Positions 26,113-53,898 of a DNA stretch of 64,000 bases are shown in pieces. Source of the DNA: Crenalkalicoccus roseus (GTDB lineage: Bacteria; Pseudomonadota; Alphaproteobacteria; Acetobacterales; Acetobacteraceae). The stretch lies in the NCBI RefSeq assembly GCF_004761865.1, contig NZ_SJDM01000018.1, positions 1 to 64,000 of the forward strand, given 5' to 3'. Position 1 is the first letter of the stretch. Every line of letters begins with the position of its first letter. A model generated the notes under the pieces. The model saw nothing but the letters and a program-made list of their open reading frames with translations. It was not told the DNA's origin and made no database searches. The position numbers were made by a program, and so were the translations under genes.

Positions 26113-26679
26113 TCAGAAGCGGCGCTCGAAGACGGTGATCACATCGCCCGGCAGCACCAGCGCGTCGCGGGGCGCGCGGAATTCCTGCGCGCGGCCGTCC
26201 GGCCCGATGCGGGTGATCGAGACGTAGTTCTGTATCGCGCGATAGTTGAAGCCGCCGGCCACCGCCACCGCGGTGAGAACGGTCATGCCGGGCTGGTAGG
26301 CAAACTGGCCGCCTCGCTCAACCATACCGAGCACGAAGATCGGCCGGTACTGCGTGACCTCGACGGCGACGTTGGGGTCCCTGAACAGGCCCCGCTGGCG
26401 CATCTCCTGCGCGATCGCGGCCTCGACTTCGCTCGTGGTGCGGCCGGCCGCCTGCACCGTGCCGACCAGCGGCAGGGCGAGGGTGCCGGCGTCGGAGACG
26501 CGGAACTCTCCCGTCAGCCTCGGGTCGTTGAAGACGGTCACGCGCACCCGGTCGTCCGGCCCCAGACGGTAGGTGGTGGGTGCCGTCGTCTCCGGCAGCG
26601 GCGGCAGATGGGCGCCGGGAGCGGCGCAGGCGGCGAGGCCGGTGAGCGCCAGGAGGCAGAGCAGGCGGCGTGATGGCAT
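26113..26679 (-). CDS. Polysaccharide export protein (Wza-like lipoprotein)
   Basis: 188-residue outer-membrane polysaccharide exporter of the Poly_export/SLBB type. The lipobox LAAC (Cys18) follows a short signal. The export domain begins YRLGPDDRVRVTVFNDPRLTG, then SDAGTLALPLVG, with a final SLBB segment ending in PGDVITVFERRF. Length is normal for short GumB-like members. The ATG at 26679 follows AGGGAG. It is divergent from the tyrosine autokinase gene; both partners of a Wza-Wzc machine are therefore encoded back to back. Confidence 0.9.
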   Translation of the reverse strand: MPSRRLLCLLALTGLAACAAPGAHLPPLPETTAPTTYRLGPDDRVRVTVFNDPRLTGEFRVSDAGTLALPLVGTVQAAGRTTSEVEAAIAQEMRQRGLFRDPNVAVEVTQYRPIFVLGMVERGGQFAYQPGMTVLTAVAVAGGFNYRAIQNYVSITRIGPDGRAQEFRAPRDALVLPGDVITVFERRF

Positions 26680-26927
26680 CGGAACTCCCTTCTGATCCTG
26701 AAGCGACTGCTTCCCTGCGTCGCGCGCGCAGGTTGCGGCGGCGACGTCGCACCCCCTCTTTGCCAGAGCGGGACCGTTCCGCACATTCGTTTTTCCTTGC
26801 GCGGCTGGTTCATCACACCGAGTTTTTCTGACTTGATGCTGTATCGCCCTACCGTTGATTGACCGCCGCGGCGCACGGCGCGTATTCGGCGCCCACTGCA
26901 GCATCGGCCAAGGGAAGAAGACCGCGC
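26680..26927. promoter_or_regulatory. Divergent promoter region of the export and tyrosine autokinase genes
   Basis: The 248-base region between the divergent genes is locally AT-rich at 26765-26860 (CGTTTTTCC, GAGTTTTTCTGAC, TTGATGCTGTATCG). It must drive both genes. I cannot assign -10 and -35 boxes with confidence. Confidence 0.45.
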
Positions 26928-29195
26928 ATGCTCGACAGGACGGTTGATGCTCGGCCACCGACGGACCGCCGGCCGCCTCCGCGCGCCCCGGTGCCGGGAA
27001 GCGCGCCGATCGAGCCGGAGGGGCTGACGGTCACCGCGCTGCTCGCCGCGCTGCGCCGCCGCCGCTGGGTGCTGATCCTCTGCGCCATCCTGTTCCCGCT
27101 CGCGGCCTACATCGCGGCGAAGCAGCTCACGCCGCGCTACACCGCCAACACCACGGTGATGTTCGAGCCGACCGAGTATTCGGTGCGCGAGCTGCAGAGC
27201 ATCCTGCGCGACGAGAACACGACCGATGCCGTGCTCGCGAGCCAGGTGGAGATCATCCGCAGCCTCTCCATCGCGCGCCGCGTGGTGCAGCGGTTCGGCC
27301 TCGAGCAGCGGCCCGAATTCGCCTGGTGGCTGCGCGACGCGCAGCGGGCCGAGGGGGCCTGGTACCGGATGCAGGACGGGCTCAGCCGCTGGCTCGGCTC
27401 CTTCGCGCCCTGGCTGGCCGAGCCGATCGCCCCGCGCCCGCCGGCGCGGGTGCCGCCGCCTGAGGCGGCCGAGATCATGGCGGCGGAGGCCATGATCAAC
27501 GCCCTGCAGGTGCAGGTGGTGCGCAACTCCCGCGTGCTGTCCATCCGCTTCACCTCGGAGGACCGCCACCTCGCGCGCGACGTCGCCAACTACGTGGCCG
27601 AGCTCTACATCGCCGACCAGCTCGAGGGGAAGTTCAACGCCGTCCGCCGCGCCAACGAGTGGCTGGAGGCGCGGGTCGCGCAGCTCCGCCAGGAGGTCGC
27701 CGTCACCGAGCAGCGGATCGCCGAGCTGCGCGCGGCCTCGGGGCTGACGCGCGGCGTCAGCGCCGTGCTGGCGACCGAGCAGATCAGCCGCATCAACGCG
27801 GACCTGCTGGAGGCGCGCAACCAGCTCGCCACCGCCGAGGCGCGGCTTGCCGCGGCACGCGGCGGCGGCGGCGGCGCCGACCTGACCGCGCTCGGCGCGG
27901 CCAACCTGACGGCGCAGCGCACCGCCCGCGACGCCGCCCGCCAGGAGCTGGAGCGCCTGCAGGCGACGCTCGGCGCCAACCATCCGGACGTGCGCGCGGC
28001 GCGCTCCCGCCTCGCCGAGGCCGAGCGGGCCGTGGGCGCCGAGACCACGCGGGTGGTGCAGGCGCTCGACGCCGAGGCGCGAGCGGCGCGGGCGCGGGTG
28101 CGCAGCCTGGAGGAGGCGCTGCGCCTGCAGGAGGACCGGGTCAACACCGGCCAGTCCGCCGAGATCCAGCTCGCCGCGCTGGAGCGGGAGGCGGAGGCCT
28201 CGCGCAGCCTGCTCCGCGCCGTGCTGGAGCGCTCGCAGCAGACCGTCGCCCAGACCGCGATCGAGCGGCCGGACGCCCGCGTGCTCTCCCCCGCTACCAC
28301 GCCGGCGCTGCCGAGCTTCCCCAAGGTCACCACCTTCGTGATGGCCGCCGTGGTGCTCGGCGTGCTGTTCGGCCTGCTGGTCATCTGGTTCCTCGAGCAG
28401 GCGGACAGCACCATCCGCAGCGGCGAGGAGGTGCGCAGCGCCCTCGGCCTGCCCTGCCTCGCCCTGGTGCCGATGCTGAAGCGCGGCCTGCTCGGCCGCC
28501 ACCGCGCCGAGGACTACGTGGTGCGCAAGCCGCTCTCGCCCTTCGCGGAAAGCATGCGCACGCTGCGCGCGGCGCTCTGGCTCGGCGCCGAGCCGCCGCG
28601 GGTGATCGTCATCACCGCCGCCCGCCCGGGCGAGGGCAAGACCACCACCGCCGTCGCCCTCGCCCGCTCCGCGGCGATGAACGGGGAGCGGGTGCTGCTG
28701 ATAGACTGCGACGTGCGCCAGCCCTCGCTCGGCCAGGTGTTCCGCTGCGAGGGCGCGGCGGGCGTGACCGACCTGCTGCTCGGCCAGGCGGTGCTCGAGC
28801 GCATCATCCGCCGCGACCACCTCTCCTCCCTCGACTACATCCCGGCCGGGGCGGCGGAGATCCACTCCCTCGGCCTGTTCATGTCCGAGGCGATGGCGGG
28901 GCTGCTCGATCGGGTGCGCCGGGATTACGACCTGATCGTGCTCGACGCCCCGCCGGCCCTTGCCATGGCCGATGCCCGCGTCGTCGCCCGCCTCGCCGAC
29001 GCCACGCTGCTCTGCGTGAAGTGGCGCGACACGCCGCGCTCGGTGGTGCGCAACTCCCTCGGCCTGCTCGAGGAGGCGCATGCGCGCGTGGTCGGCGCGG
29101 CGCTGACGCAGGTGGATGCCAAGGTGCACGGCCGCTCCGGCTACGCCGACGCGGAAGTCTACCACCCCCGCTACGGCGGCTACTTCCGGGAGTGA
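26928..29195 (+). CDS. Polysaccharide biosynthesis tyrosine autokinase (Wzc-like)
   Basis: 755-residue bacterial tyrosine kinase fused to its Wzz co-polymerase. A first membrane helix (VLILCAILFPLAAYIA) follows the short N-terminal tail. Next come the Wzz domain, a long periplasmic coiled coil (about residues 240-430) and a second membrane helix (FVMAAVVLGVLFGLLVIWF). The cytoplasmic kinase carries Walker A ARPGEGKTT (about 565-573), Walker A' LLIDCDVRQPS and Walker B LIVLDAPP. Four Tyr residues lie in the last 17 residues, the usual autophosphorylation cluster. The ATG at 26928 follows AAGGGAAGAAG. Confidence 0.92.
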   Translation: MLDRTVDARPPTDRRPPPRAPVPGSAPIEPEGLTVTALLAALRRRRWVLILCAILFPLAAYIAAKQLTPRYTANTTVMFEPTEYSVRELQSILRDENTTDAVLASQVEIIRSLSIARRVVQRFGLEQRPEFAWWLRDAQRAEGAWYRMQDGLSRWLGSFAPWLAEPIAPRPPARVPPPEAAEIMAAEAMINALQVQVVRNSRVLSIRFTSEDRHLARDVANYVAELYIADQLEGKFNAVRRANEWLEARVAQLRQEVAVTEQRIAELRAASGLTRGVSAVLATEQISRINADLLEARNQLATAEARLAAARGGGGGADLTALGAANLTAQRTARDAARQELERLQATLGANHPDVRAARSRLAEAERAVGAETTRVVQALDAEARAARARVRSLEEALRLQEDRVNTGQSAEIQLAALEREAEASRSLLRAVLERSQQTVAQTAIERPDARVLSPATTPALPSFPKVTTFVMAAVVLGVLFGLLVIWFLEQADSTIRSGEEVRSALGLPCLALVPMLKRGLLGRHRAEDYVVRKPLSPFAESMRTLRAALWLGAEPPRVIVITAARPGEGKTTTAVALARSAAMNGERVLLIDCDVRQPSLGQVFRCEGAAGVTDLLLGQAVLERIIRRDHLSSLDYIPAGAAEIHSLGLFMSEAMAGLLDRVRRDYDLIVLDAPPALAMADARVVARLADATLLCVKWRDTPRSVVRNSLGLLEEAHARVVGAALTQVDAKVHGRSGYADAEVYHPRYGGYFRE

Positions 29196-29198
29196 TCC

Positions 29199-30194
29199 TT
29201 GGCCCGATACCTGGTCACCGGCGGCGCCGGCTATGTCGGCAGCCACCTCGTGCTCGCCCTGATCGAGCGGGGGGAGGAGGTGGTGGTCCTAGACAACCTG
29301 CGCCAGGGCCATCGCGCCGCCGTGCCTCCCGAAGCCAGGCTCGTGGTCGGCGAGGTCGGCGAGCCCGCGCTGCTGCGGGAGGTGTTCTCCGGCCCGCGCT
29401 TCGACGCGGTGTTCCATTTCGCCGCCCTCTCGCTGGTCGGTGAGAGCATGCGCGAGCCGCTGCGCTACTGCGCCGAGAACGTCGCCAACAGCCTGCGCCT
29501 GGCCGAGGCGGCGGTGCGGGCGGGTTGCCGCAAATTCGTGCTCTCCTCCACCGCCGCGCTGTTCGGCGACCCCGAGCGGGTGCCGATCGATGAGGAGGCC
29601 CGCCTCGCCCCGACCAGCGCCTATGGCGAGAGCAAGCTGATGGTCGAGCGTGGCCTGGAATGGGCCGACCGCGTCCACGGCCTGCGCTCCGCCTGCCTGC
29701 GCTACTTCAACGCCGCCGGCGCCGACCCGGCCGGCCGGATCGGCGAGGACCACGAGCCCGAGACCCACCTCATTCCCCTCGCCATCGGCGCCGCTCTCGG
29801 CACCCGCCCCCCGCTCACCGTCTTCGGCGCCGACTACCCGACCCCGGACGGGACCTGCATCCGCGACTACGTGCATGTCTCCGACCTCGCCGATGCGCAC
29901 ATCCGCGTGCTCAACCTTCTGGAAGAGCGCAGCGTGCGCTACAATCTCGGCAACGGAACGGGATACTCGGTGAGGCAGGTGATCGAGACGGTGGAACGGA
30001 TCGGGGGGCGGCCGGTGCCGCACAGCTACGGCCCCCGGCGCGCCGGCGACCCGGCGGTGCTGGTGGCCTCCAGCGAGCGCATCCGGCGCGAGACCGGCTG
30101 GGCGCCTCGCTTCGGCGCGCTCGACGACATCGTGCGCACCGCCTGGGCGTGGCACGCGGCGCATCCGCGCGGCTTCGCCGACCGTTCAGCCTGA
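29199..30194 (+). CDS. galE: UDP-glucose 4-epimerase
   Basis: 331-residue NAD-dependent SDR epimerase interconverting UDP-glucose and UDP-galactose for polysaccharide precursors. The cofactor motif TGGAGYVGSH lies at residues 7-16. The catalytic residues are Ser in LSSTAALFG and YGESK. The RYFNAAGADP segment is conserved in GalE. The start is TTG at 29199, three bases after the previous stop and preceded by GGGAG. It is probably cotranscribed with the autokinase and supplies the exopolysaccharide route. Confidence 0.92.
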   Translation: MARYLVTGGAGYVGSHLVLALIERGEEVVVLDNLRQGHRAAVPPEARLVVGEVGEPALLREVFSGPRFDAVFHFAALSLVGESMREPLRYCAENVANSLRLAEAAVRAGCRKFVLSSTAALFGDPERVPIDEEARLAPTSAYGESKLMVERGLEWADRVHGLRSACLRYFNAAGADPAGRIGEDHEPETHLIPLAIGAALGTRPPLTVFGADYPTPDGTCIRDYVHVSDLADAHIRVLNLLEERSVRYNLGNGTGYSVRQVIETVERIGGRPVPHSYGPRRAGDPAVLVASSERIRRETGWAPRFGALDDIVRTAWAWHAAHPRGFADRSA

Positions 30195-30200
30195 CCCCCC

Positions 30201-31646
30201 ATGCCCGCGGAGGGCGCGGCCCCGCTGCCGCAGCCGGCGGAGCGGGCGCCCCGGCGCCCCGCCATGCGGACGGCAAGGCGCCTCGGCACCCTCTGCCTGT
30301 CCGCGCTGCTGCTGATCTGGCCCGCCGCCTGGAACGGTTACCCCCTGGTCTTTTCCGATACCGGCACCTATCTGGGCCAGGCGCTGATCGGCTATCTCGG
30401 CTGGGATCGCCCGGCCTTCTACAGCCTGTTCCTGCTGCTCACCCACTGGCGGCTCACCCTCTGGCTGTCCGTGCTGGCACAGGGGCTGATCACCGCCCAT
30501 CTGCTCTCCCTGGTGCTGCGCGCGCACGGGCTGCCGGGCAACCTGCCCCTGCTCCTGGCGGCGGCCGGGCTCGCGGTGCTGAGCGGGCTGCCATGGCTCG
30601 CCGCCCAGCTCATGCCGGACCTGTTCACCGGCCTGCTCGTCCTCGCGCTGTGGCTGCTCGGCTTCCGCGCCGCGGTGCTGAGCACGGGGGAGCGGGTCTG
30701 GGTGCTGCTGCTGGCCAGCGGAGGGGTGGCCGTGCATCTCAGCCACCTGCCGCTGGCCCTCGGCCTCGGCCTGCTGGGCAGCGCGCTGCTCTTCGCCTTT
30801 CGCGGCCGGCGGGAGGCGTATCTCGGCGCGGCGCGCATGCTGGCGCCGCCGCTGCTGGCTTCCCTTGCCATGATGGCGGCGAACGCCGCCGGCCATGGTC
30901 GGCTCGCGGTTTCCCCCTTCGGCTCCGTCTTCATGGCGGCGCGGGTCATCTATGACGGGCCCGGGATGGCGCATCTACGGCGCGCCTGCCCGGAGGCCGG
31001 CTATCGCATCTGCGGCGTGCTCGACCGTCTCGGCCCCTATCACAACGCCTTCCTCTGGTATCCGACGAGCCCCCTGCACAACGAACTCGGCGGGCCGAAG
31101 GCCTGGGCGCCGGAGGCCTCCGCCATCGTGCTCGGCACCCTGCGGGAGGCGCCGGCCGCGATGGGAGCCGCCGCCCTGGCCAACACCCTGCGCCAGCTCG
31201 CCCTGGTCGCCCCCGGCGACGGGCTTGAGCCCTGGCCCGGCGTGCCAGGGCCGGAGCCGCTGATCGCCCGCTTCTTCCCGCAGGAGCGGGAGCGCTTCCT
31301 GGCCTCGCGCCAGCAGCAGGGGCTTCTGCTCGACGACGTCCGGAGTCTGGCGCCGCTGCACCGCCTCCTGGCGCTGGCGGGGCTGCTCGGCGTGGCGCTG
31401 CTCGTGGTCCGCCACCGGCGCACGCTCGGCCTGCCCCGCTTCGCCCTCGCCGCCTTCGTGCTGGCGGCGGCGCTCGGCAACGCCGCGGTGACGGGAGGGC
31501 TCTCCGGCCCCGCGGAACGCTACCAGGCGCGGATCGCCTGGCTGTTCGTGCTGGCGCCCGCCCTGCTCGCGCTGCCGGCGCTGCGGGCGGATCGCCACCG
31601 GAGGGCGGCGCCATCGGGAAGCGCGGACCTGCTCTACAGGCCCTGA
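30201..31646 (+). CDS. Uncharacterised polytopic membrane protein (family member 1)
   Basis: 481-residue protein, not recognised, with about nine to eleven hydrophobic segments. An N-terminal hydrophobic helix precedes a conserved loop NGYPLVFSDTG, then HWRLTLWLSVLAQG, MPDLFTGLLVLAL, HLSHLPLAL, HGRLAVSPFGSVF, ANTLRQLA and NAAVTGGLSGPAERYQARIAWLF. The same blocks occur in the protein at 48049-49410, so the two are paralogues. The first-loop Asp and the polytopic layout recall GT-C glycosyltransferases; with galE and the autokinase upstream this is plausible but unproven. The start may instead be the ATG at 30264. Confidence 0.75.
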   Translation: MPAEGAAPLPQPAERAPRRPAMRTARRLGTLCLSALLLIWPAAWNGYPLVFSDTGTYLGQALIGYLGWDRPAFYSLFLLLTHWRLTLWLSVLAQGLITAHLLSLVLRAHGLPGNLPLLLAAAGLAVLSGLPWLAAQLMPDLFTGLLVLALWLLGFRAAVLSTGERVWVLLLASGGVAVHLSHLPLALGLGLLGSALLFAFRGRREAYLGAARMLAPPLLASLAMMAANAAGHGRLAVSPFGSVFMAARVIYDGPGMAHLRRACPEAGYRICGVLDRLGPYHNAFLWYPTSPLHNELGGPKAWAPEASAIVLGTLREAPAAMGAAALANTLRQLALVAPGDGLEPWPGVPGPEPLIARFFPQERERFLASRQQQGLLLDDVRSLAPLHRLLALAGLLGVALLVVRHRRTLGLPRFALAAFVLAAALGNAAVTGGLSGPAERYQARIAWLFVLAPALLALPALRADRHRRAAPSGSADLLYRP

Positions 31647-47287: not shown

Positions 47288-48037
47288 TCACGCCAGGTTG
47301 CGCGCCACCAGATACAGGCCGAGCACCAGCAGGCACACCTGCACCACCCGCCGGAACGCCGCCTCCGACAGCGCCCCGCGCACCCGCCGCCCCACCGCCA
47401 TGCCGAGGAAGGCGGGCGCCATCACCGCCACCGAGGCGAGGCCGAGCTCCGGCGGCAGCAGCCCCTGCCCGGCCATGCTCACCGCCAGCACCAGTGTCGC
47501 CACCACCGCCCCCAGCGCGAAGGCCTGCACGAACATGTCGGGGGAGAGGCGCAGCGCCGCCAGCCAGGGCGCGGCCGGCACCATGAAGCTGCCGGTCAGC
47601 CCCGCCACCGCGCCCGAGGCGCCGCCCATCACCGGCGACAGCCAGCGCTCCGCCCGCGGCGGCGGCATCGGCCAGCGCGGCCCGAGCAGCGCCAGCAGCG
47701 AGGAGGCGGCCAGCAGCAGGCCAAGGAACCCGGCGAGCAGCGCCGCATCGGCGCGCGCGAGCTGCCCCGCCGCGGCGAAGGTGCAGACCGCCGCCGCCAG
47801 CAAAAAGCCGCCGAAGCGCCGCAGCGTCGGGCCGAGTGCGCCGCTGCCGAAGGCCTGCCAGATGTTGGTGGCGAGCGTCGGCAGCAGCACGAGGGGGATC
47901 GCCTCCGGCAGCGGCCGGGTCAGCGCCAGCAGGCCGAGGCTCACCGTCGGCAGGCCGAAGCCGGCGATGCCCTTGATCAGCCCCGCCAGGGTGAAGATGC
48001 CGAACACCAGCGCGGCGTCGAGGAGGTCGAGGCCCAT
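47288..48037 (-). CDS. TauE/SafE family membrane transporter
   Basis: 249-residue polytopic protein with about seven to eight membrane segments and the two-fold TauE/SafE layout. The start GLIKGIAGFGLPTVSLGLLAL and the second-half GGASGAVAGLTGSFMVPAAPW repeat are diagnostic. Members export sulfite, sulfoacetate or other anions; some are of unknown role. It is the last gene of the long minus-strand run from uvrC. It ends facing the PLD-family gene. Confidence 0.85.
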   Translation of the reverse strand: MGLDLLDAALVFGIFTLAGLIKGIAGFGLPTVSLGLLALTRPLPEAIPLVLLPTLATNIWQAFGSGALGPTLRRFGGFLLAAAVCTFAAAGQLARADAALLAGFLGLLLAASSLLALLGPRWPMPPPRAERWLSPVMGGASGAVAGLTGSFMVPAAPWLAALRLSPDMFVQAFALGAVVATLVLAVSMAGQGLLPPELGLASVAVMAPAFLGMAVGRRVRGALSEAAFRRVVQVCLLVLGLYLVARNLA

Positions 48038-49420: not shown

Positions 49421-49783
49421 TCACGGCGCGGCGAAGAGTTCGAGCACGTTGCCCTCCGGGTCGGCGACGCGCAGGCGCCGCGGCGGCGTTCCGCCCGGCC
49501 CCGGCGCCTCCAGCACCGCGACGCGGGTCGTCATCATCCGCCGGTGCCAGCGGTCCAGCTCCTCCTCCGGCACGGGCAGGGCCAGCAGCACCCCACCGCC
49601 GCCCGAAGGGGCGGAGAGGGGAAACAGCGCGTCGCCCCGTGCCCGCAGCACCAGCTCCACCGCGCCGAGCAGGAAGCCATAGGGTCCCGCGGGCGGCAGG
49701 CCCAGGATGCGGCCGTAGAAGTCGTGCAGCCGGGGCGGGTCGTGGCAGGGCAGCTCCACCCGCGCAAGGGCGCCGGGGTTCAC
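49421..49783 (-). CDS. VOC family protein
   Basis: 120-residue glyoxalase-fold protein. It shows RVELPCHDPPRLHDFYGRILGL and the second-half RRLRVADPEGNVLELF, the usual dioxygenase/glyoxalase marks. It starts with GTG at 49783, overlapping the moaE stop (GTGA). This tight coupling suggests co-translation with moaE, though no molybdenum role is known for the family. It may instead belong with the membrane protein just downstream. Confidence 0.75.
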   Translation of the reverse strand: MNPGALARVELPCHDPPRLHDFYGRILGLPPAGPYGFLLGAVELVLRARGDALFPLSAPSGGGGVLLALPVPEEELDRWHRRMMTTRVAVLEAPGPGGTPPRRLRVADPEGNVLELFAAP

Positions 49784-50256
49784 GCCGGGGCAGCCGGGCG
49801 GCTCTCCTCCCAGCGGGCGGCGGAGACCTCGTCCTCGGCCTTCGCCTCCACCCAGCGGGTCTCGCCGGAGGCGAATTCCTCCCGCTTCCAGAAGGGGGCC
49901 CTGGTCTTCAGCCAGTCGATCAGGAAGGCGCAGCTCTCAAGCGCGGCGGCACGGTGCGAGGAGGCGGTGAGCACGAGCACGATCGGCTCGCCCGGGCGCA
50001 GCCGGCCGTGGCGGTGGATCACGGTGCAGCCGGCGAGCGGCCAGCGGGCACAGGCCTCGGCGGCGATGCGGGCGATGGCGCGCTCCGTCATGCCGGGATA
50101 GTGCTCGAGCACCATCGCCTCCAGCCCGTCATCGGCGCGGCACACGCCGAGGAAGCTGGCGATGCCGCCGATGTCGGTGCGCCCGCCGAGCAGCGCCGCG
50201 GTCTCCGCGGCCGGGTCGAAGGGCGCCTCCTGCACCCGCACGCGCGGCGCGGTCAT
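49780..50256 (-). CDS. moaE: Molybdopterin synthase catalytic subunit
   Basis: 158-residue large subunit that uses sulfur carried by MoaD to convert precursor Z to molybdopterin. The family segment GRLRPGEPIVLVLTASSHRAAALESCAFLIDWLKTRAPFWKRE contains the active-site Lys residues, given here only as motif. It overlaps moaD in ATGA (50253-50256) and the VOC gene in GTGA. The length is normal. Confidence 0.95.
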   Translation of the reverse strand: MTAPRVRVQEAPFDPAAETAALLGGRTDIGGIASFLGVCRADDGLEAMVLEHYPGMTERAIARIAAEACARWPLAGCTVIHRHGRLRPGEPIVLVLTASSHRAAALESCAFLIDWLKTRAPFWKREEFASGETRWVEAKAEDEVSAARWEESRPAAPA

Positions 50257-50504
50257 CCGCCGGTCACCGGGGGGAAGAAGGCGACCTCGTCGCCCGGGCC
50301 GACGTGCCGGTCCGGTGTGGCGAAGTCCTGGTTGACCGCGGCGCGGATGGCGCGCGCCTCGGCGAAAGCGGCGGCATGGCCGGGGCTGCGGCCGGCGAGC
50401 CAGCGCATCAGCCCGGCGACGTCCGTCACCTCCGGGGGCGGCGCCACCTCCTCCTCGGCCACGCCGACCTTCTGCCGCACCCAGGAGAAATAGAGCACCC
50501 GCAT
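50253..50504 (-). CDS. moaD: Molybdopterin synthase sulfur carrier subunit
   Basis: 83-residue ubiquitin-like protein ending in the Gly-Gly tail (PPVTGG) that forms the thiocarboxylate. Start MRVLYFSWVRQKVG and the AVNQDF segment match MoaD. GAGGAGG precedes the ATG. It partners moaE, with which it overlaps. It follows the lipoprotein gene after 13 bases. Confidence 0.95.
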   Translation of the reverse strand: MRVLYFSWVRQKVGVAEEEVAPPPEVTDVAGLMRWLAGRSPGHAAAFAEARAIRAAVNQDFATPDRHVGPGDEVAFFPPVTGG

Positions 50505-51242: not shown

Positions 51243-51857
51243 TCAAGGCCGCACCGCCGGGTGGGACCGGGTGCCGGGCTTGCCGGTGTCGTGCCCGGCA
51301 TGCCGCAGCCCCGCCTGCAGGTAGTCCCAGCCGGTGATCAGGGTCAGCACCGCCGCGATCCAGAGCATCGCCTCGCCGATGAAGGATACGGGCAGGAAGG
51401 GGAGGCCGAGCGCCGCCGCCGCCGTGTCGCCGGCGAGCAGCGTGCCGAGCGCGCCCATCTGGAAGCCGGTCTTCCACTTGGCCAGCCGTGTCACCGGCAG
51501 GCTCACCTTCAGCCCGGCGAGATATTCGCGCAGGCCCGAGACCAGGATCTCGCGCAGCAGGATGACGATGGCGGGGTAGAGCGCGGCGGCGGAGAGGCGC
51601 TCCATCCCCGCCAGCAGCATCAGCGCCGCCCCGACCAGCAGCTTGTCCGCGATCGGGTCCAGCATGCGGCCGAAGCCGCTGACCATCTGGCGCTCGCGCG
51701 CGATCTTGCCGTCGAAGTAGTCGGTGATGGCGGCGGCGGAGAACACCGCGCAGGCCGCGACATCCGCCCAGGGATGGCGCAGCGCCACCAGCGCCACCAG
51801 CAGCGGGATGGCAGCGATGCGCGAGAGGGTGAGCAGGTTGGGCAGGTCGGTCGGCAT
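51243..51857 (-). CDS. pgsA: CDP-diacylglycerol-glycerol-3-phosphate 3-phosphatidyltransferase
   Basis: 204-residue inner-membrane enzyme that makes phosphatidylglycerol phosphate, the first step to phosphatidylglycerol and cardiolipin. The CDP-alcohol phosphotransferase motif is complete: Asp46, Asp49, Gly50, Ala53, Arg54, Gly63, Asp67, Asp71. About four to six membrane segments are seen. It fits the uvrC-pgsA-moaD-moaE order that is common in alphaproteobacteria. It provides the precursor for the PLD-family gene at 45925. Confidence 0.94.
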   Translation of the reverse strand: MPTDLPNLLTLSRIAAIPLLVALVALRHPWADVAACAVFSAAAITDYFDGKIARERQMVSGFGRMLDPIADKLLVGAALMLLAGMERLSAAALYPAIVILLREILVSGLREYLAGLKVSLPVTRLAKWKTGFQMGALGTLLAGDTAAAALGLPFLPVSFIGEAMLWIAAVLTLITGWDYLQAGLRHAGHDTGKPGTRSHPAVRP

Positions 51858-52002
51858 TGTCTCGGGCGAAGGGGGTCCCTGGTTCGGACCCCCAACCTAC
51901 AGCACTTCGGGGGATCATGCTTCCGCCCCTTGCTGAGGGGGTGGCTGATCCGCCGCCCGGGTGCCAGGGGAGGTTCCGGCCGGGAGGGCCCGGCGCCCGG
52001 CG

Positions 52003-53898
52003 TCACTCCTGCGAGGGGAGGGCGCCGGGGTGGAAATGCTCGTGGATGCGCCGGGCGAGGCCCCGGCCGATGCCGGGGCAGTTCTCCAGATCCTCGATCC
52101 CCGCCTGGCGCACGCCGCGGGCGGAGCCGAAATGGTGCAGCAGGCGCCGCTTGGTGGCGGCGCCGACGCCTGGGATGTCGTCCAGCTCCGAGCGCGTCAG
52201 CGTCTTCGACCGCCCGGCGCGGTGGGCGGAGACGGCGAAGCGGTGCGCCTCGTCGCGCAGCCGTTGCAGGTAGTAGAGCACCGGGTCGCGTGGCGGGAGC
52301 TGGAAGGGCTCGCGGCCGGCGCGGTGGAACCACTCCCGCCCCGCGTCGCGGTCCGGCCCCTTGGCGACGGCGACCAGCGGGATGTCATCGCAGCCGAGCT
52401 CGGCCAGCACCTCCCGCGCGGCGTTGAGCTGCCCGGCGCCGCCGTCGATCAGCACGAGGTCGGGCCAGGTGCCGCTCTCCCGCTCCGGATCCTCGCGCAG
52501 CGCGCGGCCGAAGCGGCGCTCGAACACCTCGCGCATCATGGCGAAATCGTCCCCGGGGGCGACCGGGCCGCGGATGGCGAATTTGCGGTAGGCCTGCCTG
52601 AGGAAGCCGGAGGGTCCGGCGGCGATCATCACCCCATAGGGGCTGGCGCCCTGGATGTGGCTGTTGTCATAGACCTCGATCCGCTCCGGGGGCGCGGGCA
52701 GGTCGAGGAGGCGGGCCACGCCCTGCAACAGCGCCTGCTGCGCCGTGCCCTCGGCGAGCTTCCGCTCCAGCGCCTCGCGCGCATTGGTCTCGGCGTGCTC
52801 CACCGCCGCCCGCTTGTCGCCGCGCTGCGGGCGGTGGATCTCCACCCTGCGCCCGGCCTTGAGGGAGAGCGCCTGCGCGATCAGCTCGCGCTGCGGCGGA
52901 TCGTGGCTGACCAGGATGAGGGGCGGCGGCGGCAGGTCGTCGTAGAGCTGGGCGAGGAAGGCGCCGAGCACCTGCTCCGGCCCCTGCTCCTGGCGCGCAT
53001 GGCTGAGGAAGAAGGGGCGGTTGCCGTTGTTGCGCCCGCCGCGGAAGAAGAACACCTGCACGCAGGACTGGCCGGCGGCCTGATGCAGCGCCACCACGTC
53101 GGCATCGCCGAGCCCCTCGATGTTGATGCGGTCGCGGCCCTGCACATGGGTCAGCCCCCTGATGCGGTCCCGCAGCGCCGCGGCGCGCTCGAATTCCAGC
53201 CGCTCCGCCGCCGCCTCCATCTCCCGCGCCAGGTCCTTCTGGATGGAGGGCGTCTCTCCGGAGAGGAACTGCTTCGCCTGGGCGACCAGCCCGGCATAGT
53301 CCTCCCGCGAGATGCGGCCGACGCAGGGGGCGGAGCAGCGCCTGATCTGGTAGAGCAGGCAGGGACGGTCGCGGCTGTCGAACACCGTGTCGCGGCAGGA
53401 GCGGAGCAGGAACACGCGCTGCAGCGCCGTCAGCGTCTGGTTCACCGCCCAGGCGGAGGCGAAGGGCCCCCAGTAGCTCGCACCCCTGCGCCGCTCCCCG
53501 CGATGCTTGGCGATCTGCGGGAAGGGGTGATCCTCCGTCAGCACCAGCCAGGGATAGGATTTGTCGTCGCGCAGGACGATGTTGTAGCGCGGGCGCAGGC
53601 GCTTGATCAGATTGGCCTCGAGCAGCAGCGCCTCGGCCTCGTTCGCGGTGGTGATGACCTCGAGGCTGCGCGTCTCGTGCACCATGCGGCGCAGCCGCTC
53701 GGGCAGGCGGGCGGGGCGGGTGTAGGTGGCGACGCGCCGCTTGAGCGCCCGGGCCTTGCCGACGTAGAGGGCATCTCCCTTGGCGTCGAGCATGCGGTAG
53801 ACGCCGGGCGAGAGGGGGAGGGTCGCCAGCGCACGCTCGATCACGCGCGCGCCCTCCATGGCCGGGACGCCGGCGGCCTCGGTCTCGGCTTCGCTCAT
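52003..53898 (-). CDS. uvrC: UvrABC system protein C
   Basis: 631-residue nuclease subunit making the 3' and 5' incisions in excision repair. The N-terminal GIY-YIG domain shows SPGVYRM and LYVGKA; a central UvrBC domain ([12 protein letters not shown]) is near residue 230. The RNase H-like nuclease includes VYDNSHIQG and [10 protein letters not shown]. Two helix-hairpin-helix units end it ([33 protein letters not shown]). The start at 53898 is the first Met. It faces the AT-richer region downstream of folB. Confidence 0.96.

Follow-up and report, generated by a model that had tools for sequence, protein, structure and literature searches.

A membrane protein family with a predicted GT-C_A fold, encoded twice on a Crenalkalicoccus roseus contig

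Two related membrane proteins of Crenalkalicoccus roseus, both encoded in the window (the whole stretch of 64,000 nucleotides that was analysed), are likely to be integral-membrane glycosyltransferases of the GT-C_A type, in a family that is unnamed in Pfam and NCBIfam. The first of these GT-C_A-like membrane proteins, P0001 (30201..31646, forward strand, 481 aa), is the EPS-linked paralogue and would go with a Wzc-type exopolysaccharide (EPS) system, and the second, P0002 (48049..49410, reverse strand, 453 aa), is the moa-linked paralogue. The sequence family is new, within a known fold class. Its homology, predicted fold, invariant residues and recurrent gene neighbourhoods are demonstrated below, and from these we infer an activity, a donor, an acceptor and the roles of individual residues.

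Copies, relatives and sequence searches

In a BLASTP comparison P0001 and P0002 are identical at 185/411 positions (45%, 200 bits, E 3e-63). The first-pass annotation of the window had seen the family twice; both reading frames are indeed present, and the sequence blocks that it had named are collinear in the alignment. A search of the C. roseus assembly (4,431,246 bases, 127 contigs) returned only these two proteins at E <= 0.01. Neither of them is matched by Pfam or NCBIfam at E <= 1, in agreement with the same annotation, which had recognised no family name.

Scanning 96 members against Pfam brought up 22 families, each in three members at most and with a best E of 0.0065. PMT, PMT_2 and GT87 were absent among the Pfam families matched by these members at E <= 1, as was MFS, and Glucos_trans_II (GtrII) was matched by one of the 96 at E 0.39, missing its curated cut-off. 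Among 48 members scanned against NCBIfam the sole match was LptF, in one member at E 0.0015; this match and that of one of the 96 members to Pfam LptF_LptG (E 0.0065) are weak and were judged to be due to chance. A sequence search of the PDB with a first profile gave nothing at E <= 1, and a second, distant profile gave seven rows (best E 0.15, worst 0.48), six of them from a GPCR and one from a mannosyltransferase (9s6t, E 0.29), all of which were discarded. Neither protein had a match in a plasmid collection at E <= 1e-5, no usable match came from a viral library, and a search of the open-licence literature, made without any family name, surfaced no paper on the family.

A profile-profile comparison with GT-C families, which had been proposed as a check of the GT-C guess, was negative. 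The hhalign probabilities of the family were 0.5 against PMT_2, 4.6 against PMT and 14.9 against GT87, and 1.8 against MFS and 0.2 against Wzy_C; L172 and L216, with frames of less than 300 aa, were kept out of the sets, and for GtrII two sequences only were found for profile building. The GT87 match aligns family columns 57-206 with GT87 258-407, which is a non-equivalent register, and the PMT match (60-228 on 73-247) has the expected register but too weak a score, so that both were rejected. Because the comparison with PMT, PMT_2 and GT87 is negative, the GT-C placement guessed in the first-pass annotation is supported structurally and positionally, by the fold matches of both proteins, the residue pattern and the position of a conserved Asp, and not by sequence.

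A scan of genome contigs found 102 relatives. The best 80 of the 102 loci were retained, and 94 reading frames together with P0001 and P0002 make up an alignment (A1) of 96 rows. Adding 17 distant frames, a set from which L099 was excluded, gives 113 rows including L098, and this frame, which ends early, was left out of the tree and of the counts on 112 rows. Judged by their titles, the retained loci stem largely from Acetobacteraceae, Roseomonas-like genera and Rhodospirillales; one clade of 12 loci (L025, L037, L042, L047-L051, L054, L059, L067 and L071) is titled mostly Betaproteobacteria. Two of these, L051 and L067, are metagenome bins titled Bordetella parapertussis group, which the family tree places beside bins of freshwater Alcaligenaceae, and their titles may be mislabelled. 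Profile searches, with the C. roseus genome included, found family members in 16 of the 398 genomes sampled across the phylum and in 63 of the 150 sampled within the Acetobacteraceae.

In the tree of 112 rows a branch separates the ten P0001-type rows from the P0002-type rows; the EPS label of the former had been assigned in advance of the tree, from their likeness to P0001 and from their surroundings. This branch has an SH-aLRT value of 89, below the 95 mark, and its two halves have values of 100 each; the root is a midpoint root only. The P0001 and P0002 types are two old clades. One metagenome-assembled genome (RH59_bin.032) carries both types, at L007 and L060.

Predicted fold and conserved residues

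The AlphaFold2 models of the two proteins have a pLDDT of 93.9 and a pTM of 0.91 (P0001) and of 95.6 and 0.94 (P0002). The P0002 model was computed from a separate 48-row alignment that includes distant members; since the two input alignments share members, the models are not fully independent. In the P0001 model there are ten transmembrane (TM) helices, and the chain ends after TM10. TM1 (20-38) is followed by two loop helices (52-63 and 73-82), by TM2 (88-108) and by TM3-TM7 (up to 232). This topology puts a long first loop (39-87) in the periplasm, together with the loop that TM3 leads into and the large one behind TM7 (233-375). According to the passages cited here, GT-C_A enzymes have in common TM1-7 and two juxtamembrane helices, JM1 and JM2, between TM1 and TM2, and in all of them the JM1 tip carries an Asp that is essential for catalysis (PMC12041299, PMC12041525). 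This core of seven TM helices and two juxtamembrane helices is present in the P0001 model, and the P0002 model agrees.

The structure comparison with VIA-align was run on Foldseek's candidates, and its Z-scores are to be read with the caveat that unrelated helical folds may score up to Z 13. For P0001 ranks 1-38 are all GT-C entries (Z 14.9 down to 6.4), with Pmt4 at Z 14.9 (4.4 A, 326 aligned), AglB at 14.8, AftA at 13.1 and ArnT at 13.0; these rows cover residues 17-472, and the next row (rank 39, Z 5.8) belongs to a CAND1-SCF chain. For P0002 ranks 1-40 are all GT-C (Z 15.1 down to 6.4), with Pmt4 at 15.1 (4.2 A, 315 aligned), ArnT at 12.9 and PimE at 11.6, and the next rows are the GT-C_B proteins FtsW (5.5 and 5.2) and WaaL (5.2), far under the GT-C_A rows. 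Over both lists the GT-C entries comprise Pmt, AglB, STT3, PglB, AftA, ArnT, ALG3/9/12, Emb, DPY19, AftD, AftB and PimE, where the rows 9n9j_I, 6ftg_5 and 8b6l_I were taken as STT3 from complex title and length; the GT-C type that they represent is that of Pmt, STT3 and ArnT. Another of the listed rows is an ESX-5 secretion protein, with Z 5.4 across 94 residues. Foldseek itself found nothing in the PDB for P0001 at E <= 0.001; among the 50 rows listed it was GT-C entries that had high probabilities, with 0.97 for 9n9j_I, 0.93 and 0.92 for OST-A, 0.84 for ArnT and 0.82 for 6ftg_5.

The top fold match of both proteins is thus to the protein O-mannosyltransferases Pmt1/Pmt2/Pmt4 (GT39), but the structural alignments have only 8-10% identity, and neither a Pfam PMT match nor a positive hhalign comparison goes with them. 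In Pmt proteins, too, the first luminal loop carries an acidic residue, but they contain a MIR domain that P0001 and P0002 lack. ArnT (GT83), the bacterial aminoarabinose transferase, is bacterial like the family and has a polyprenyl-phosphate donor, but there is no PMT_2 match, and the ArnT chain is longer, with more TM helices. The oligosaccharyltransferases AglB, STT3 and PglB (GT66) match at Z 10.5-14.8, and PglB has a first-loop Asp as well as an Asp after TM3; their large soluble C-terminal domain, however, is missing in the family, and a sequence match is absent. Both proteins also match the mycobacterial GT-C enzymes PimE, AftA, AftB and EmbB in fold, without a PDB sequence match at E <= 0.1, and these enzymes serve actinobacterial envelope acceptors. 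The passages cited describe the essential Asp at the JM1 tip for the mycobacterial enzymes and, for AftB, a pair of Arg that contact the phosphate of the donor (PMC12041525, PMC12041299).

Three residues, D53, D140 and W447 in P0001 numbering, are kept in 113/113 aligned rows, and R440, R444, C263 and C271 each in 112/113; the equivalents of D53 and D140 in P0002 are D30 and D118. The first-pass annotation had asked whether the Asp of the first loop is universal, and no aligned row lacks it. The first long helix that the model has in the first periplasmic loop is helix 52-63. D53 belongs to the first turn of this helix, and its placement by secondary structure supports its assignment to the position of the GT-C_A catalytic Asp at the JM1 tip. 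D140 comes after TM3, where PglB and also ArnT have an acidic residue. The large loop after TM7 contains both Cys263 and Cys271, between which a periplasmic disulfide is possible.

The presumed active-site side of the protein faces outward, as judged from the positive-inside count and the location of the conserved columns. The fraction of Lys and Arg is 0.196 in the cytoplasmic segments (N terminus excluded) versus 0.079 in the periplasmic ones, with the same direction in 107/112 rows, and the 30 columns that are at least 95% conserved in the 112 rows are distributed over periplasmic loops (19), TM helices (11) and cytoplasmic segments (0). Both counts take their topology from the helices of the P0001 model and amount to a statistical test.

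Gene neighbourhoods of the two types

The two very different neighbourhoods that had been described for the copies, one with polysaccharide genes (Poly_export, Wzc-like BY-kinase, galE) and one with molybdopterin and phospholipid genes (moaE, ThiS/MoaD-like, pgsA, uvrC), are confirmed and recur in relatives. P0001 is preceded on the forward strand by a gene for a Wzc-like polysaccharide co-polymerase with a BY-type tyrosine autokinase (26859..29195; Pfam Wzz and AAA_31), which passes the cut-off of NCBIfam TIGR01007, and by galE, encoding UDP-glucose 4-epimerase (29199..30194; TIGR01179, 393.1 bits versus a cut-off of 262.3), with gaps of 3 bp between kinase and galE and of 6 bp between galE and P0001. 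A polysaccharide export protein (Poly_export, Wza-like) is encoded divergently (26113..26958, reverse strand); its start codon is unsure because the listed frame overlaps the start of the kinase gene. A polysaccharide-deacetylase-domain gene lies nearby, with allantoinase as its best NCBIfam row, under the cut-off. The frames scanned between 26113 and 36708 include these export, co-polymerase/kinase, galE, GT-C-like and deacetylase-domain genes but none that was recognised as a polymerase, as a flippase or as a glycosyltransferase of the cytoplasm, and among the scanned neighbours no polyprenyl-phosphate-sugar synthase was recognised. The gene directly after P0001 (31726-33303) is gamma-glutamyltranspeptidase-like; it passes the Pfam cut-off and stays under the NCBIfam cut-off for gamma-glutamyltransferase.

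Neighbours in the other sources were counted by tblastn, since the initial gene calls followed a rough codon-position G+C rule by which some genes were missed or mis-extended (the L001 family gene, moaE in the window); L081, L082, L083 and L099, second copies of window genes, were excluded from the neighbour set. In the 100 sources searched, a Wzc-like homologue was found in exactly the ten of the P0001 type and in 0/90 others, and in 10/10 loci of the P0001 clade it lies immediately upstream of the family gene. As source length is limited (21/100 are shorter than 4.5 kb), a missing Wzc-like gene says little for some of the sources. A galE gene lies between the kinase and the family gene in 7/10 (the window, L001-L004, L006 and L007) and not in the other 3/10 (L008, L032 and L038), and 5/10 sources of the clade have a Poly_export homologue. 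The L007 locus has in addition two acyltransferases, a GH5-like protein, a GT2, an HlyD and a Wzy_C protein.

Around P0002 all listed genes are on the reverse strand. A glyoxalase-like gene, moaE and a ThiS/MoaD-like gene (49421..50504) are directly upstream, pgsA and uvrC (51243..53898), which recur in moa-type loci, are farther upstream, and a TauE/SafE-type permease (47288..48037), with a homologue in 16/100 sources when the window is counted, is encoded directly downstream. Homologues of moaE, the MoaD-like gene, pgsA and uvrC are found in 43, 42, 37 and 28 of the 100 sources, respectively, and in 0/10 of the P0001-type sources; a spot check of moaE homology on one pair gave 60% identity. 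As clues to the function of P0002 the moa, pgsA and uvrC neighbours yielded nothing and were set aside.

Proposed function and alternative readings

In the glycosyltransferase reading D53 is the probable catalytic residue, and the residues around the active site are probably D140, H179, R248, E305 and, near the C terminus, R440/R444. The donor would be a polyprenyl-linked sugar held at its phosphate by the arginines R440/R444 or R248, and D53 would act on the acceptor or on the donor. Precedents for the two modes are PimE, with D58 as base, and AftB, with D62 as nucleophile and two Arg on the phosphate, as given in the passages cited (PMC12041299 / PMC12041525); by analogy either mechanism may apply to D53.

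The P0001 enzyme would be a partner of the Wzc-type exopolysaccharide system and would attach a sugar, on the periplasmic side, to the lipid-linked or growing exopolysaccharide. The presence of galE suggests galactose, which stays a guess since 3/10 clade sources are without galE between kinase and family gene. The P0002 enzyme would be an old paralogue for another envelope acceptor. A role model is found in the Gtr-type and GT136 three-component systems, where a GT-C enzyme decorates a surface polysaccharide in the periplasm from a polyprenyl-phosphate sugar (PMC11127046). In contrast to those systems, an adjacent donor synthase or flippase is not recognised at the P0001 locus, which has a Wzc-like partner instead. 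The proteins of the family are candidate periplasmic glycosyltransferases, and the Wzc-galE-GT-C trio offers a direct genetic entry point to the exopolysaccharide.

GT-C_A families include, in the passage cited, some with lipid-P-monosaccharide and some with lipid-PP-oligosaccharide donors (PMC10920833), and therefore the fold alone cannot pick between decoration and polymerisation. P0001-type proteins might be EPS polymerases or ligases, that is, GT-C_A enzymes that, like STT3 and PglB, use a lipid-diphosphate-linked oligosaccharide and are direct partners of the Wzc-like co-polymerase. The constant position of the Wzc-like gene, also where galE does not intervene, would suit such a role, as would the oligosaccharyltransferases AglB, STT3 and PglB among the top fold matches and the absence of Wzy_C at E <= 1e-12 from the window's contig, the two of the genome being on other contigs. 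We nevertheless consider it unlikely: the monosaccharide users Pmt and ArnT fit the fold equally well, and in L007 the Wzy_C protein is encoded slightly downstream of the family gene, and proteins of the same ORF cluster are also present in L001 and L002. Moreover, none of the frames scanned near P0001 was recognised as a further biosynthetic glycosyltransferase, so that the window locus is not the whole pathway. Wzy sequences are highly diverse, and a divergent Wzy might escape detection. That the P0001 type is an unrecognised EPS polymerase or transfer enzyme of the GT-C_A (Pmt/STT3-like) fold and an obligate partner of the Wzc-like tyrosine-kinase co-polymerase seems distinctly improbable; if true, P0001-type enzymes fill a role until now held by Wzy proteins.

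A polytopic membrane protein within a polysaccharide locus could also serve to transport or flip lipid-linked sugars, and not as a transferase, and the two best E-values of Foldseek do belong to transporters, but with low probabilities (0.21 at most among the 50 rows listed). We hold this to be very unlikely, as GT-C entries fill the top 38 and the top 40 rows of VIA-align, whereas among the rows listed neither the solute transporters nor the flippase MurJ exceed Z 4.3 (4.3 for the MFS-type OCT1 against P0001) and MprF has 4.5, and as the strongly conserved columns keep to periplasmic loops and helices. A match to a known transporter would have spoken against the first-pass guess; in the VIA-align lists of both proteins the GT-C entries outrank all other folds. 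Just as improbable is a GT-C-fold protein without catalysis, such as a scaffold subunit like PIGU, which is a published case of this fold without glycosyl transfer according to the passage cited (PMC12041525); a polar site as conserved as that formed by D53 and D140, with W447 and the nearly invariant R440 and R444, argues for catalysis and against a scaffold.

Two further observations touch on surface glycans. The one GtrA-type match of the genome, L225, lies on another contig (C40, about 227445); a frame near it resembles, by eye, an initiating phosphoglycosyl transferase, and the region is perhaps a second surface-polysaccharide locus. Tandem family frames are present in 14 loci (L005, L010, L013, L034, L040, L044, L052, L053, L060, L062, L070, L075, L077 and L078), with the equivalents of D53 and D140 kept in both copies. 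Since the downstream copies of the 14 loci make up, with L063, a single tree group (15 rows, SH-aLRT 99), the tandem duplication looks old. This duplication of the moa-linked paralogue hints at a further surface glycan or glycolipid, in which the tandem copies perhaps make two linkages of one glycan, or act as a heterodimer as in Pmt1-Pmt2.
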